The translations under genes and the position numbers were made by a program. Positions 8,611 to 14,645 of a stretch of DNA of 64,000 bases are shown here, piece by piece. How positions within the stretch are numbered: the stretch's first letter is position 1; each line of letters opens with the position of its first letter. The DNA comes from Bacteroidales bacterium (GTDB taxonomy: Bacteria; Bacteroidota; Bacteroidia; Bacteroidales; GWA2-32-17), in assembly GCA_013314715.1 (NCBI GenBank), contig JABUFC010000001.1, forward strand, positions 1-64,000, in the 5' to 3' direction. The notes below the pieces were generated by a model that worked only from the letters and a program-made list of their open reading frames with translations, was not told the DNA's origin and did no database searches.

Positions 8611-10041
8611 ATGATTAGTTTTTTTAGTTCTATCGTTTTATTGTTTTTGGGCTATTTTTTATATGCTCGTTTTATAGAAAAAGTTTTTGGTGTAGATAAA
8701 GAACGTCTTACACCTGCTATCACAAAGACTGATGGAGTAGATTTTGTTCCATTATCTTGGTCTAAAATTTTTTTAATCCAGTTTCTAAATATAGCGGGTT
8801 TAGGTCCTATCTTTGGTGCAGTGGCAGGTGCTATGTGGGGACCTGTAGCTTTTTTTTGGATAGTATTGGGTAACATTTTGGGAGGGGCTGTTCACGATTT
8901 TTTCTCCGGTATGATATCGGTTCGAAGAGGGGGCGAAAGTATTCCAGAAATTATTGGTGCTTATTTAGGGGTTACCGTTAAGCAATTGATGCGTGCATTT
9001 GTTGTAATAATGATGATTATGGTTGGAGCTGTTTTTGTCGTAGGACCAGCTAAGATATTAGATGGTATGACAATCGGCACAATGGGGCTTACTTTTTGGG
9101 CAACCATTATTTTTATTTATTACATATTGGCCACATTGTTGCCAATCGATAAAATTATTGGCAGAATATACCCATTATTTGGTTTAGCTTTGTTGTTTAT
9201 GGCTGTAGCCATTTCGTTTATGATGATTTATAAAGGATTACCAATTCCAGAAGTGTCTTTGACCAATATGCATAGCCAACCCGAACAGTATCCTATATAT
9301 CCACTTTTATTTGTATCTATAGCTTGTGGAGCTATTTCAGGCTTTCATTCAACGCAGTCGCCTCTTATGGCACGATGTATAACCAACGAAAAGTATGGTC
9401 GTCGAGTGTTTTATGGTGCTATGGTGGCCGAAGGTCTAGTCGCTCTAATTTGGGCAGCTGTAGGCATGAGCTTTTGGGGTGGAGTAAAAGAGTTAAATAC
9501 AATAATGATTGCTCAACAAGGTAATGCAGCTTGGGCAGTAAACGAAATTTCGTTGGGTTTACTTGGTAAAGTTGGTGCTATTTTAGCCATTCTGGGTGTT
9601 GTTGCTGCGCCCATTACCAGTGGAGATACTGCTTTTAGAAGTGCACGTTTAATCGTAGCCGATTTTTTAAAACTCGATCAGAAACCTATTAAAAATCGCC
9701 TAATTATTTCGTTTTTCCTCTTTTTAGGAGGATTTTTGTTGACCCTTGTTAAGTTTGATATTATTTGGCGTTATATGGCATGGTCAAATCAAACTTTAGC
9801 AACTTTAGTACTATGGGCTATAACAGTATATCTGGTTCGTAATGGTAAAATATATTGGATAACTTTAATTCCTGCTATATTTATGACAGCTGTTGTAAGC
9901 ACATATATATTTATTGCGCCAGAAGGATTTCAATTGTCGCAGCAGTGGAGTTATATACTTGGGCTTATTATAACGTTATTTTTCACATTTTTATTTTTTT
10001 ACAAACTAAAATTTTTAAAACTACATACTGAAAAATTATGA
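8611..10041 (+). CDS. cstA: Carbon starvation protein A family transporter
   Basis: A 476-residue multi-pass membrane protein with the CstA core: the N-terminal FxxFLGYFxYxRFIE segment, the DFVPL-S block, then GLGPIFGAVAGAMWGP and HDFFSGMISVRRGG. The later GFHSTQSPLMARC and TSGDTAFRSARL loops are also family signatures. CstA proteins import peptides or pyruvate in nutrient-poor cells. The length matches the short form seen in Bacteroidota. It lies between the two nuclease genes, and its TGA overlaps the addB-like ATG by four bases, so it must be co-expressed with them. The substrate cannot be read from sequence. Confidence 0.92.
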   Translation: MISFFSSIVLLFLGYFLYARFIEKVFGVDKERLTPAITKTDGVDFVPLSWSKIFLIQFLNIAGLGPIFGAVAGAMWGPVAFFWIVLGNILGGAVHDFFSGMISVRRGGESIPEIIGAYLGVTVKQLMRAFVVIMMIMVGAVFVVGPAKILDGMTIGTMGLTFWATIIFIYYILATLLPIDKIIGRIYPLFGLALLFMAVAISFMMIYKGLPIPEVSLTNMHSQPEQYPIYPLLFVSIACGAISGFHSTQSPLMARCITNEKYGRRVFYGAMVAEGLVALIWAAVGMSFWGGVKELNTIMIAQQGNAAWAVNEISLGLLGKVGAILAILGVVAAPITSGDTAFRSARLIVADFLKLDQKPIKNRLIISFFLFLGGFLLTLVKFDIIWRYMAWSNQTLATLVLWAITVYLVRNGKIYWITLIPAIFMTAVVSTYIFIAPEGFQLSQQWSYILGLIITLFFTFLFFYKLKFLKLHTEKL

Positions 10042-12893
10042 CAACTTTTTTATCAGAAGTCGCTCATTATATTTATAAATATAATACACAATTTGCAAAT
10101 GTTGTAGTTTTAATGCCGAATAGGCGTTCTTGTTTGTATCTCGAAAAAGAACTTTGCAATTTATTAAATCATACCAGTTGGTTGCCGCAAATAATTTCGC
10201 TTAACGATTGGGTTAATCAGCATTCATCATTACAAACAGCTGATGAGTTATTGCTAATTTCACATTTGTTTAAGGTGTTTAAAAATAATTATACAAACAA
10301 AACTATTACTTTTGATGAGTTTTATTTTACCGGGCAAATTTTATTGAATGATTTTAATGATTTAGATGCAGAATTAGTCGATGCCGAAAAGTTATTTACT
10401 AATCTTGCTGATATTAAAGAAATTAGCGAACGTTTTCCTTTTGATGACGATTTTTTTAATATATTAAAAGGATATGTTCAATTGTTGGAAAAGCAAAATA
10501 AGTCTAAAGATGAATATGGGCTCGATGAATATTTAAAACTTTGGCAAGGATTTTATACACTTTACGAACAATTTAAAAAAGAATTGATATTAAGTAAGAT
10601 AGCCTACGATGGTTTATTAACTCGTTACTTTGTTGAAAATGAGTGGTCAAAATTAAACCATTTTAAAGACAATATCTTTTTTGTAGTTGGGTTTAATGCA
10701 GTTAACAAAGCAGAAAAGAAAATATTTGAATTATTAAATCATCAAACAGAAGTACAATTTTTATGGGATTACGATGAATATTATATAAAAAATGAGCAAT
10801 TTCATGCTGGCGAATATTTAAGAAACTTATTAAAAAGTTTTCCTCCACCTAAAGATTTTGTTGGTTCATTTGACAATTTTCGAAAACAGCAAATTAAAAT
10901 TCATGCATTACCTAACGAAGTTGTACAAGCCAAATATGCTTGTCAATGTTTAAGTTCTAATGAAGCAACTACTGGACTCATCTTAGCCGACGAAAGCTTA
11001 TTGCCTGTGGTTTTGGCTTCATTGCCCGAAAATGTAACAAAGGTAAATGTTACAATGGGATTTTCGGTAAAATATTCGACTACATATTCTTTTATTAGGC
11101 AATTGTTTCGGTTAATTCAACAAATACGTTTTGTGCATGATGATATATGGATATCTCGTGTTACATGGATGGAATTACTTTATCACCCATTTCTGGCAGA
11201 GTACAAAGAGTTACGACATCAGTTAGATAGTTTGCTTAATAAAAATTCTAATTATCAAGCTTATTTAAGCTTTAAAAATAGTTCAATATTTCAATCTAAT
11301 TCGGCAATTGAACAACTATTGTATGCTTTTTTTAAAAACATTGATCATCTTACTTTTATTAGACAACTTTTAGAATTATTACAATTTTTAGAACAAAAAT
11401 GGCTTCAAAAAGAAAAATTATCTATTAATGAAGAGTTGGAGATTCAGGCTTTACGTAAAGTATACAACAGCTTAGGTAAGTTTTATGAACTTCTTCAACA
11501 AAATGAAATTGAAATTAACGATAAAAGGCTATTATTACGTCTTATTCAACAAATAATACAACGCCAAAAGATTGATTTATTTGGTGAACCATTAGAGGGG
11601 TTGCAAATAATGGGGCTTATGGAGAGTCGTTTAATCGATTTTGAAAAAGTCTTAGTATTGTCGCTCAATGAATCGGTTATTCCTGGCGAAAAATTTATGC
11701 CTACTTTTATTTTACATTCATTGCGATTATTCTTTGGAATGACTACTCCCGAAAGACGTGAAGCAATAGATGCATATCATTTTTACCGATTATTACAACG
11801 AAGCAAAGAGTCGTTATTGTTTTATTCTCAATTTATTGGTAATGACGAGGCAGACAAAAGCCCATATGTTAGACAATTATTATTTAATACCAATATTAGT
11901 GTAGAGGAGTTTTTTATTCACGATGCAATTGCAAAATCTGATATTGTAGAACCAATAATTGTCAATAAAAAAGATATTGAAGAAGAATGGCATACGTTTT
12001 TAAACAGCAATGATTACATTCAATTATCACAAGCAGCATTAGCAACTTACATTCAGTGTCCGCTAAAATATTATTTTGAAAGAATAAAACATTTAAGCGA
12101 TGCACAATTGTTCCCCGACGATAATCTTGATAAAAAAATGGGGGATATTTTTCACGAAGCCTTGAGAAAATTATTCGAAAGTTACGATTTTATTGAAATA
12201 AAAGACTTAGATCAAATTCAGCAAAAAATACCGTTGGTAGTAGATGAACTTGTTTTAAAAAATTTTGATTTAACATGGATGCAGGTATTGTTAATGAAAG
12301 AGCAATTAAAAAATTGGCTTTATAAATTTATTGACGTTGAAAAAGGTGAAAATTCGCATTTCCCTGCAAAAATTTTAGGCTTTGAAAAAGATTTAAACTT
12401 CAATGTTCAATTGTCAGAGAAAAAAATTTTACTATTCGGAAGAGCTGATTTTATAATAGAAAGAGATGATGCGCTGTATATTATTGATTTTAAAACCGGT
12501 GGCGAAAAAGATGTACGATTTAATCATATTGAAGATTTATTTAATCAGAATGCAAAAATGGTTTATGCTTTTCAGTTGGCATTTTATGGCTATTTATATA
12601 GTATGGATAAAAATTTTGAAAAACCATTGTATCTTGAAAATATATATATAAAAAAATATGATTCGCCTTTTAAAAAAGTTTTATCAAAATTAGAACTTAT
12701 ACAAGATGTCAAAGGAAAAAAGAAACCTGTTTTTATGCCATTAAATTTTAATAAAAATATTGTAACTGAATTTGAAAAATATATGATAAATAAAATAAAT
12801 GAATTATTTAACGAAAATTATCCTTTTATTCAAACTACCGATATTCAAAATTGTGAGTATTGTAATTTTAATTTAATTTGTAGAAAAAATTAA
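10038..12893 (+). CDS. addB: AddB-like nuclease subunit, PD-(D/E)XK with probable [4Fe-4S] site
   Basis: A 951-residue partner of the AddA-like protein. The N terminus has an inactive-helicase-like fold (LMPNRRSCLYLEKEL near 25-40) without a normal Walker A. The C-terminal nuclease carries GRADFI, then IIDFKTGG (Asp817, Lys819), and a QLAFYGYLY helix. Cys674 in the IQCPLKYYF segment, together with Cys939, Cys942 and Cys948 at the extreme C terminus, reproduces the AddB arrangement in which four cysteines bind an iron-sulfur cluster that staples the nuclease domain. The start overlaps cstA by four bases. The next gene begins three bases after the stop. Confidence 0.88.
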   Translation: MTTFLSEVAHYIYKYNTQFANVVVLMPNRRSCLYLEKELCNLLNHTSWLPQIISLNDWVNQHSSLQTADELLLISHLFKVFKNNYTNKTITFDEFYFTGQILLNDFNDLDAELVDAEKLFTNLADIKEISERFPFDDDFFNILKGYVQLLEKQNKSKDEYGLDEYLKLWQGFYTLYEQFKKELILSKIAYDGLLTRYFVENEWSKLNHFKDNIFFVVGFNAVNKAEKKIFELLNHQTEVQFLWDYDEYYIKNEQFHAGEYLRNLLKSFPPPKDFVGSFDNFRKQQIKIHALPNEVVQAKYACQCLSSNEATTGLILADESLLPVVLASLPENVTKVNVTMGFSVKYSTTYSFIRQLFRLIQQIRFVHDDIWISRVTWMELLYHPFLAEYKELRHQLDSLLNKNSNYQAYLSFKNSSIFQSNSAIEQLLYAFFKNIDHLTFIRQLLELLQFLEQKWLQKEKLSINEELEIQALRKVYNSLGKFYELLQQNEIEINDKRLLLRLIQQIIQRQKIDLFGEPLEGLQIMGLMESRLIDFEKVLVLSLNESVIPGEKFMPTFILHSLRLFFGMTTPERREAIDAYHFYRLLQRSKESLLFYSQFIGNDEADKSPYVRQLLFNTNISVEEFFIHDAIAKSDIVEPIIVNKKDIEEEWHTFLNSNDYIQLSQAALATYIQCPLKYYFERIKHLSDAQLFPDDNLDKKMGDIFHEALRKLFESYDFIEIKDLDQIQQKIPLVVDELVLKNFDLTWMQVLLMKEQLKNWLYKFIDVEKGENSHFPAKILGFEKDLNFNVQLSEKKILLFGRADFIIERDDALYIIDFKTGGEKDVRFNHIEDLFNQNAKMVYAFQLAFYGYLYSMDKNFEKPLYLENIYIKKYDSPFKKVLSKLELIQDVKGKKKPVFMPLNFNKNIVTEFEKYMINKINELFNENYPFIQTTDIQNCEYCNFNLICRKN

Positions 12894-12896
12894 ACT

Positions 12897-14645
12897 ATGT
12901 ATCCTAACAATTTTTATACTTTTAAGGTTAGGTTAAAAGATAAGCCTTTTAAGACTCTCGATGGTAATGAGTATATACAAACAGCGTCTATAAGCTTTTT
13001 TAATGAATATGGTCAGGAAATAGCCTATTGTGAGTTGGGGTATATTGCCATTGATGAGATATATAAGAAAATTTATAATCATGAAGCATTGTGTTTAGAT
13101 TATGTTTATGTCGAAAATTTCTCTATTCTTGATTATAAAAATAAATATCAAATAAACGACGAAGAATCAGTTGAAATATTTAATTTTTCTGCTAAGTCAG
13201 CAGTTTTTTATGCAAACAATGCTACAATATTTAATGGTATTATTTTTAAGGAGAAGCCCGTTACATTCGAAAACGCTTTATTTATAAAAGGAATTACGAG
13301 CTTTGATAATGTAATGTTCGAAGAAGGCAATGTTAATTTTAATTCTGCTATTTTTTTTAATGGAAATGTAAGTTTTTATAATACTAATTTTTTAAAAGGA
13401 ACTATAAATTTTAAAAATACAACTTGGGGAATTGGTAACAAAAATTTTCAATACACCTATTGGGGCAATGGTGATATACTATTTAGCAATAGTTTATTTA
13501 AAGATGGAAATATTTCTTTTGTAAATTGTTCATTTGGCGATGGTGAGTTGTCGTTTAAGGTATGTTCTTTTGGTAAAGGCAATATCGATTTTCGTTTTGC
13601 CGTATTTGGCGATGGAAATTTAAATTTTGAACGGACAGAGTTGGGCGATGGCTTAATAGACTTTAGTAAAACGGAATTTGGAAAAGCAAAGGTAAACTTT
13701 AACAAAGCTATCATTGGTAAAGCAGAGTTGAATTTTGATGAAATTCAGATGATTGAAGGTAAATGGCTATTTAAGCAAGTTTACATGGAAGAAGGGAGTA
13801 TTCATTTTGACGAGGCCGAATTAAAAAAAGCTCAAATTTTCTTTAATCGCTCGATTTTTAAGCAGGTAAATATTTCATTTTATAAGTCATCGCTTAGTGT
13901 TTTATCGTTTGAGGCTTGTCAGCTAAATAGTTATTGCGATTTGCGACTTTTACACTGCAATTTTTTAAATTTATCGGGAGCTTTTATTCGAGATATAGTC
14001 GATATTTCGCTCGAAGAAAATCCTAAAAGTATCGATTCATTGTATGTTTTTGGTACGCGTTTAATGGGTCGGATTTTTTTATCATGGAAAAATAATGGGG
14101 TTCAAGAAATGATCCATAAGAGTACCGAAAATAAATACGAAAAAGCGTGGCAGTATAATCTTTTGAAACAAAATTTTAACACCATTGGTCAATACGATGA
14201 TGAAGATTTAGCATATGTAGCCTTTAAACGTGAAGAACTTGCTCTAAAAAAAGAACAAATACAGTTCGAAAAATGGTATAAACGCTTAACAAAACAATTT
14301 TTATTAAGTTTTCAGAACTTAGTATTCGATAAAATGGGTTTATATGCAACTTCGCCTTTACGCGTTTTTTATAGTATTATAATTTTGTGGTTCTTTTTTG
14401 GATTATTGTTTTCATTTTTGCATTATGTTGGAGTTGGAAAAACATGGTCTTCGGTAGGTAATCCCGATCATATTTCTATTTTTGCTCAATCCTTTTATCA
14501 TAGTGCCATTACATTTTTTACCATAGGTTATGGCGATGTTTTTCCCCAGGGTTTAAGTCGTATTTTATCTTCAATAGAGGGTTTTGTCGGTGTGTTTATG
14601 ATGTCATATTTTACGGTTGCATTTGTAAGAAAAGTATTGCGTTAA
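12897..14645 (+). CDS. K+-channel pore fused to a 19-copy dodecapeptide-repeat solenoid
   Basis: A 582-residue protein with three parts. Residues 1-105 are unassigned. Residues 106-333 are nineteen uninterrupted 12-residue repeats of the form xxGx(I/V/L)xFxxxx(F/L), for example GDGELSFKVCSF and GKGNIDFRFAVF, which should form a solenoid. A mixed linker follows (334-475), then a two-helix channel: M1 at about 487-507, a pore helix, the selectivity filter TIGYGD at 542-547, and M2 to the last residue. TxGYGD is the K+-selective signature. No domain follows M2, so any gating domain must be the N-terminal solenoid. Pentapeptide-repeat channels exist, but these repeats have a 12-residue rather than a 5-residue period. 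The gene starts three bases after addB and is probably its operon partner. The pore call is firm; gating is unknown. Confidence 0.85.
   Translation: MYPNNFYTFKVRLKDKPFKTLDGNEYIQTASISFFNEYGQEIAYCELGYIAIDEIYKKIYNHEALCLDYVYVENFSILDYKNKYQINDEESVEIFNFSAKSAVFYANNATIFNGIIFKEKPVTFENALFIKGITSFDNVMFEEGNVNFNSAIFFNGNVSFYNTNFLKGTINFKNTTWGIGNKNFQYTYWGNGDILFSNSLFKDGNISFVNCSFGDGELSFKVCSFGKGNIDFRFAVFGDGNLNFERTELGDGLIDFSKTEFGKAKVNFNKAIIGKAELNFDEIQMIEGKWLFKQVYMEEGSIHFDEAELKKAQIFFNRSIFKQVNISFYKSSLSVLSFEACQLNSYCDLRLLHCNFLNLSGAFIRDIVDISLEENPKSIDSLYVFGTRLMGRIFLSWKNNGVQEMIHKSTENKYEKAWQYNLLKQNFNTIGQYDDEDLAYVAFKREELALKKEQIQFEKWYKRLTKQFLLSFQNLVFDKMGLYATSPLRVFYSIIILWFFFGLLFSFLHYVGVGKTWSSVGNPDHISIFAQSFYHSAITFFTIGYGDVFPQGLSRILSSIEGFVGVFMMSYFTVAFVRKVLR
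13212..13895 (+). repeat. Nineteen 36-base coding repeats (12-residue units) in the channel gene
   Basis: Each 36-base unit encodes xxGxxxFxxxxF with no insertion or deletion across all nineteen copies. Gly at position 3 is kept in most units, Phe at position 7 in all of them, and Phe, Leu, Ile, Met or Trp occupies position 12. The DNA itself has diverged, so conservation is at protein level. A partial twentieth unit (SVLSFEACQL) follows. Confidence 0.9.

Follow-up and report, generated by a model that had tools for sequence, protein, structure and literature searches.

The window analysed here, a 64,000-nucleotide stretch of Bacteroidales DNA, encodes a protein in which a Pentapeptide_3 solenoid is joined to a HalA-like two-transmembrane (2TM) channel, an arrangement that is real and unusual-looking, yet of which both the repeat and the layout are known. 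The gene, its parts and its upstream neighbour are as follows.

12897..14645, + strand: whole gene of the solenoid-linker-2TM potassium channel, 582 aa, ATG start (ORF; Ion_trans_2, PF07885, 3e-11; 63 homologous loci)
12897..13211, + strand: N-terminal cap domain, residues 1-105, beta strands and two short helices, no Pfam match (AlphaFold2 (AF2) pLDDT mostly >90; homolog conservation)
13212..13895, + strand: nineteen 12-residue units, residues 106-333, Pentapeptide_3-type beta-solenoid (repeat count; PF13576 on the solenoid alone; AF2 strands)
13428..13808, + strand: best-conserved solenoid stretch, residues 178-304, candidate surface for a ligand or partner (per-unit conservation, outward positions)
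13896..14084, + strand: C-terminal end of the solenoid, residues 334-396, still beta but with the 12-residue register gone (AF2)
14085..14354, + strand: helical linker, residues 397-486 (homolog conservation; profile match from residue 411 on)
14355..14429, + strand: M1 helix, residues 487-511 (AF2 helix; Ion_trans_2)
14520..14537, + strand: K+ selectivity filter TIGYGD, residues 542-547 (sequence; invariance among homologs)
14553..14639, + strand: M2 helix, residues 553-581 (AF2; most conserved region)
10038..12893, + strand: upstream neighbour, AddB-like PD-(D/E)XK nuclease gene (PF12705, 2.3e-29)

The repeat is as regular as the original prediction had described it, with nineteen contiguous units of twelve residues running from residue 106 to residue 333 without an insertion or deletion and with phenylalanine at position 7 in every unit (19/19). 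Glycine occupies position 3 in 13/19 units, and positions 5 and 10 usually hold I, V or L and A, S or T, respectively. Phenylalanine had also been said to alternate between positions 7 and 12, which is true of an aromatic or hydrophobic residue but not strictly of phenylalanine, as position 12 is F in 11/19 units and L, W, M or I in the rest. Autocorrelation at a lag of 12 gave z values of about 10 for F and about 12 for G, and the longest chain of units reached 19, compared with 5 in 2,000 shuffles of the channel protein. The two-helix pore with its TIGYGD filter was likewise found where it had been placed, R582 being the sole residue after M2.

The repeat had not been recognised as a named family and was held to be possibly a new solenoid; what was found is essentially an HMM assignment to a pentapeptide-type family with a 12-residue period. 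The solenoid scanned by itself (residues 100-345), on which the assignment of this protein depends, matches PF13576, Pentapeptide_3, at E 1.3e-11 and 44.9 bits in five stretches, against a curated cut-off of 27 bits. The 12-residue repeat therefore belongs to Pentapeptide_3, and a new repeat family is ruled out. It had looked novel because the full-length Pfam scan of the channel gives Ion_trans_2 only, with no PF13576 even at E <=10. Full-length scans matched PF13576 in 11/49 homologs, and the 40% identical ortholog L008 gave 6.7e-11 and 42.7 bits in such a scan. In addition, tblastn against plasmids retrieved “pentapeptide repeat-containing” proteins of Streptomyces, such as L127 of S. albus (PF13576 at 7.2e-36), which aligns with the repeats of the window at a BLASTP E-value of 1e-31, ungapped over 200 residues and in the same 12-residue register xxGxxxFxxxxF. 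These proteins differ from the channel in having no Ion_trans_2 and more uniform repeats. In our own reading, which is not the output of a tool, the inward-facing residues, [IVL]5-x-F7 and [AST]10-x-F12, follow the i-2/i scheme of pentapeptide repeats, at spacings that alternate between 5 and 7.

AlphaFold2 modelled the whole channel (49 sequences) with a pLDDT of 91.7 and the solenoid alone with one of 95.3; in the solenoid a short strand recurs roughly every six residues. When the whole model was compared with the PDB by Foldseek, HalA (9nyi) came first (E 3.6e-4, probability 1.00), a polygalacturonase second and QnrB1 third; the alignment to HalA spans 368 columns against a 333-residue chain, and its TM-scores are low (0.26/0.41). 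The solenoid alone matched right-handed beta-helices and pentapeptide proteins, with no TM >0.4 and no close solved or viral relative in the PDB and BFVD, and HalA was absent from its top 50 matches. The low TM-scores together with the absence of HalA among these solenoid matches indicate that the likeness to HalA may rest mainly on the linker and the pore. QnrB1, MfpA, AlbG and 6fls were among the Foldseek matches with TM at most 0.37. The first three are solved members of the pentapeptide fold, but they have a five-residue period and no channel, and their TM to the solenoid alone is <0.3. As for the coil, unit-to-unit similarity slightly favours a lag of 24 and the most frequent indel is likewise 24 residues long, but a charge parity test was not significant (p 0.29); the coil may be an antifreeze-like one of 12 residues, or a four-sided one of 24 residues as in the quadrilateral five-residue-repeat fold.

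The pore has the two TM helices and the TxGYG filter of a 2TM K+ channel (PF07885, AF2 and homologs); Ion_trans_2 is present in 49/49 homologs, among which T542, G544 and G546 are invariant. Pore and filter are like those of MthK, KirBac and other 2TM K+ channels, which rely for gating on a domain that follows M2, whereas in the present channel nothing follows it. The linker keeps the motifs LKxxFxxxGxYDDEDxAYxxFKRxE and DKMGLYATSPxRV among homologs. Residues 411-582 align to the full C-terminal part of a profile of seven pentapeptide-type channels (hhalign E 8.5e-26), while in the same kind of comparison the linker without the pore gave a 16-column match only and the solenoid alone gave weak, short matches to other pentapeptide channels. 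At the level of sequence, then, linker plus pore is related to that of other pentapeptide-type channels.

The layout of solenoid and channel is also already known, as pentapeptide-type channels with M2 as their last element are present in Bacteroidota (L013), haloarchaea (L126, L130-L132), Aeromonas (L128) and Priestia (L129). Those of Bacteroidota, haloarchaea and Aeromonas share the order of solenoid, helical linker, M1-P-M2 and end, but their solenoids are not profile-alignable to that of the channel, and the solenoids of L013 and L126 are of the ordinary five-residue type (PF00805/PF13599). Our literature search found no pentapeptide-channel fusions besides Hailong, for which, as for HalA, the primary paper is reportedly Tan et al. 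2025, with PDB 9nyi. Two related channels (L112, 712-2025; L012, 454-1686) carry the same linker-pore end behind another N-terminal part, SNAP/TPR-like in L112, which suggests that the class is modular and that its N-terminal sensors can be exchanged.

HalA belongs to the Hailong anti-phage system, according to two articles that cite the primary paper (PMC13275509, PMC12657230), and the first of them describes it as an ion channel that poly-dA adducts block; the title of PDB 9nyi describes it as binding oligodeoxyadenylate. On a plasmid of Priestia megaterium, a pentapeptide-type channel gene (L129, 2812-4415) overlaps a nucleotidyltransferase gene, and its product runs from a pentapeptide region through a helical linker to Ion_trans_2 and the end. 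We regard the two genes as a candidate Hailong-like pair, and the Foldseek match and this pair together suggest that HalA, too, has a pentapeptide domain. HalA is the best structural match of the present protein, it is an ion channel, and a related pair has the same domain order. As to the possible new mode of channel gating, the architecture class already has a solved relative in HalA (9nyi), described as blocked by poly-dA (PMC13275509). In contrast to HalA, the channel of the window has a longer 12-residue solenoid (19 units) and no HalB-type partner that could be found, and it is chromosomal, vertically inherited and located beside AddB; the TM-scores, moreover, are low.

The channel family comprises 63 loci in GTDB genomes, mostly of uncultured Bacteroidales, with further members in Flavobacteriales and Cytophagales and single ones in Dethiobacter and Cloacimonadota. 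Its members share full-length homology at 30-60% identity, and the family is chromosomal and distinct. A match was present in 9/10 genomes of the window's own taxonomic family. Two sets of sampled Bacteroidota genomes, one of 296 and one of 395 (the latter by profile search), contained no full-length homolog outside the window's own genome, so that the family is patchy; the other matches in these sets extend over the pore, and some take in the linker as well. In a genome of the same genus (G001), a decayed copy is present (L009, 1501-2160), in which the repeat is recognisable among 14 stop codons and no ORF reaches 100 aa, and in G003 the ortholog is split into two frames near residue 140 (L003 and L010), by assembly error or a real frameshift.

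We propose a tetrameric K+ channel whose gating comes from the N-terminal side, where a solenoid in the cytoplasm would be the sensor and would act through the helical linker, a reading that we consider moderately probable. That a solenoid and a K+ pore are joined with nothing after M2 is borne out by the ORF, which ends at M2, and by the matches to PF13576 and Ion_trans_2; as no domain follows M2, the sensor or tether sits at the N-terminus, as originally predicted. Four solenoids would lie in the cytoplasm, since no signal peptide is seen and the end after M2 is positively charged. A small ligand, a nucleic acid or a protein would bind the solenoid, and this binding would move the helical linker, which is joined to M1; gating would then reach the pore from the N-terminal side, unlike in MthK with its C-terminal ring. 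HalA, as a poly-dA-blocked channel, would be the working analogue, and the channel may work like it. The tetramer, the cytoplasmic side, the gating and the ligand are all what we infer.

Conservation along the solenoid bears on this reading and on the possibility that the solenoid does no gating and serves as a passive scaffold or tether, which would cluster an otherwise simple K+ channel for leak or uptake, or hold it in position, for instance on the nucleoid or on a partner protein. Such a role appears doubtful, though it is the most credible of the alternatives. Long, very regular rods often serve as spacers, and a spacer could tolerate the varying solenoid length of the deep homologs L092/L093, which have about 7-8 intact units in a chain compared with 17-19. 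Unit number is nearly fixed in the main family, however, at 19, or at 17 where a single deletion has removed two units; the register is kept in full-length homologs, whose commonest indel in the repeat region is exactly two units long (24 aa; residues 140-163; seen in 9 homologs). Central outward residues are also conserved, including charged and polar ones such as N210, K221, D231, E245, R246, D255, K265, K270 and K289. Outward positions in units 7-14 have a mean entropy of 1.91 compared with 2.33 in the other units, with a permutation p of 0.006 that is optimistic because the block was picked after inspection of per-unit conservation. The solved relative HalA, moreover, is ligand-controlled (PMC13275509). 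Instead of a gating ligand, conservation of the solenoid could reflect a partner protein or the packing of subunits.

The neighbourhood of the gene raises a further, unlikely alternative, that the channel is functionally coupled to the AddAB helicase-nuclease and senses AddAB activity, single-stranded DNA or phage inhibition of AddAB, as a guard or a DNA-damage effector. An AddB-like gene lies directly upstream on the same strand in 36/62 loci, including the window, even though the genes beyond AddB vary; in the window 3 bp separate it from the channel ORF, and the two genes are likely co-transcribed. On a 49-row tree about 7 changes are required to account for the linkage, which seems to have been present in the ancestor of a 38-row Bacteroidales clade and to have been lost repeatedly, and the binding of oligodeoxyadenylate named in the title of 9nyi, the closest solved channel, would fit such a coupling. 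Against it, the linkage is missing in about 20 homologs, including all those of Flavobacteriales and Cytophagales, many Bacteroidota have AddB but no channel, and gene order kept among related genomes can reflect inertia. The more specific version, in which nucleic acid or nucleotide signals gate the K+ channel and the channel is wired to the housekeeping DNA-repair machinery of AddAB as a core-genome relative of HalA without HalB, seems more improbable still. In many Bacteroidales (L047-L064, L068, L077, L090 and others) the gene stands in a block of AddA, radical SAM, AddB, channel, ribH, TPR and RecF, and in the window a CstA-like gene replaces the radical SAM gene.

Motif and BLAST searches found no HalB-type nucleotidyltransferase among the close neighbours in the window or its homologs, the sole nucleotidyltransferase-like motif match near homologs being 5.7 kb away (L099). 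PF01909 and PF18765 had no match in the window's genome, whereas most control genomes match, and PADLOC matched none of 49 homologs, its 2023 library (2.0.0) having also missed the Priestia channel. As no HalB-type partner turned up in the neighbourhood or, within the sensitivity of Pfam, elsewhere in the genome, the channel is not filed as Hailong, and membership is disfavoured. A genuine Hailong effector with an unlinked or diverged HalB is the least probable of these alternatives and highly improbable, since this partner search and a vertical, core-like neighbourhood outweigh HalA as the top structural match and the nucleotidyltransferase beside the Priestia channel.

These results suggest that HalA-like channels are apparently not confined to defence islands, and that uncultured Bacteroidota hold a conserved chromosomal family of them whose solenoid is much longer, for which no partner that makes a signal was found, and which lies preferentially beside a recombination nuclease. 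Were its ligand found, this would explain how gating can come from the N-terminal side in a channel where no domain follows M2. Were a channel gated by nucleic acid or nucleotides truly wired to AddAB, DNA damage or phage attack on AddAB would be reported as K+ flux. Another Bacteroidota channel family (L018, L020, L021, L022, L030 and L033; about 550-650 aa) also ends near M2 and has a beta-rich-looking N-terminus, an extra hydrophobic segment, a TLGYG/TLGFG-type filter and a weak or no Pfam match.
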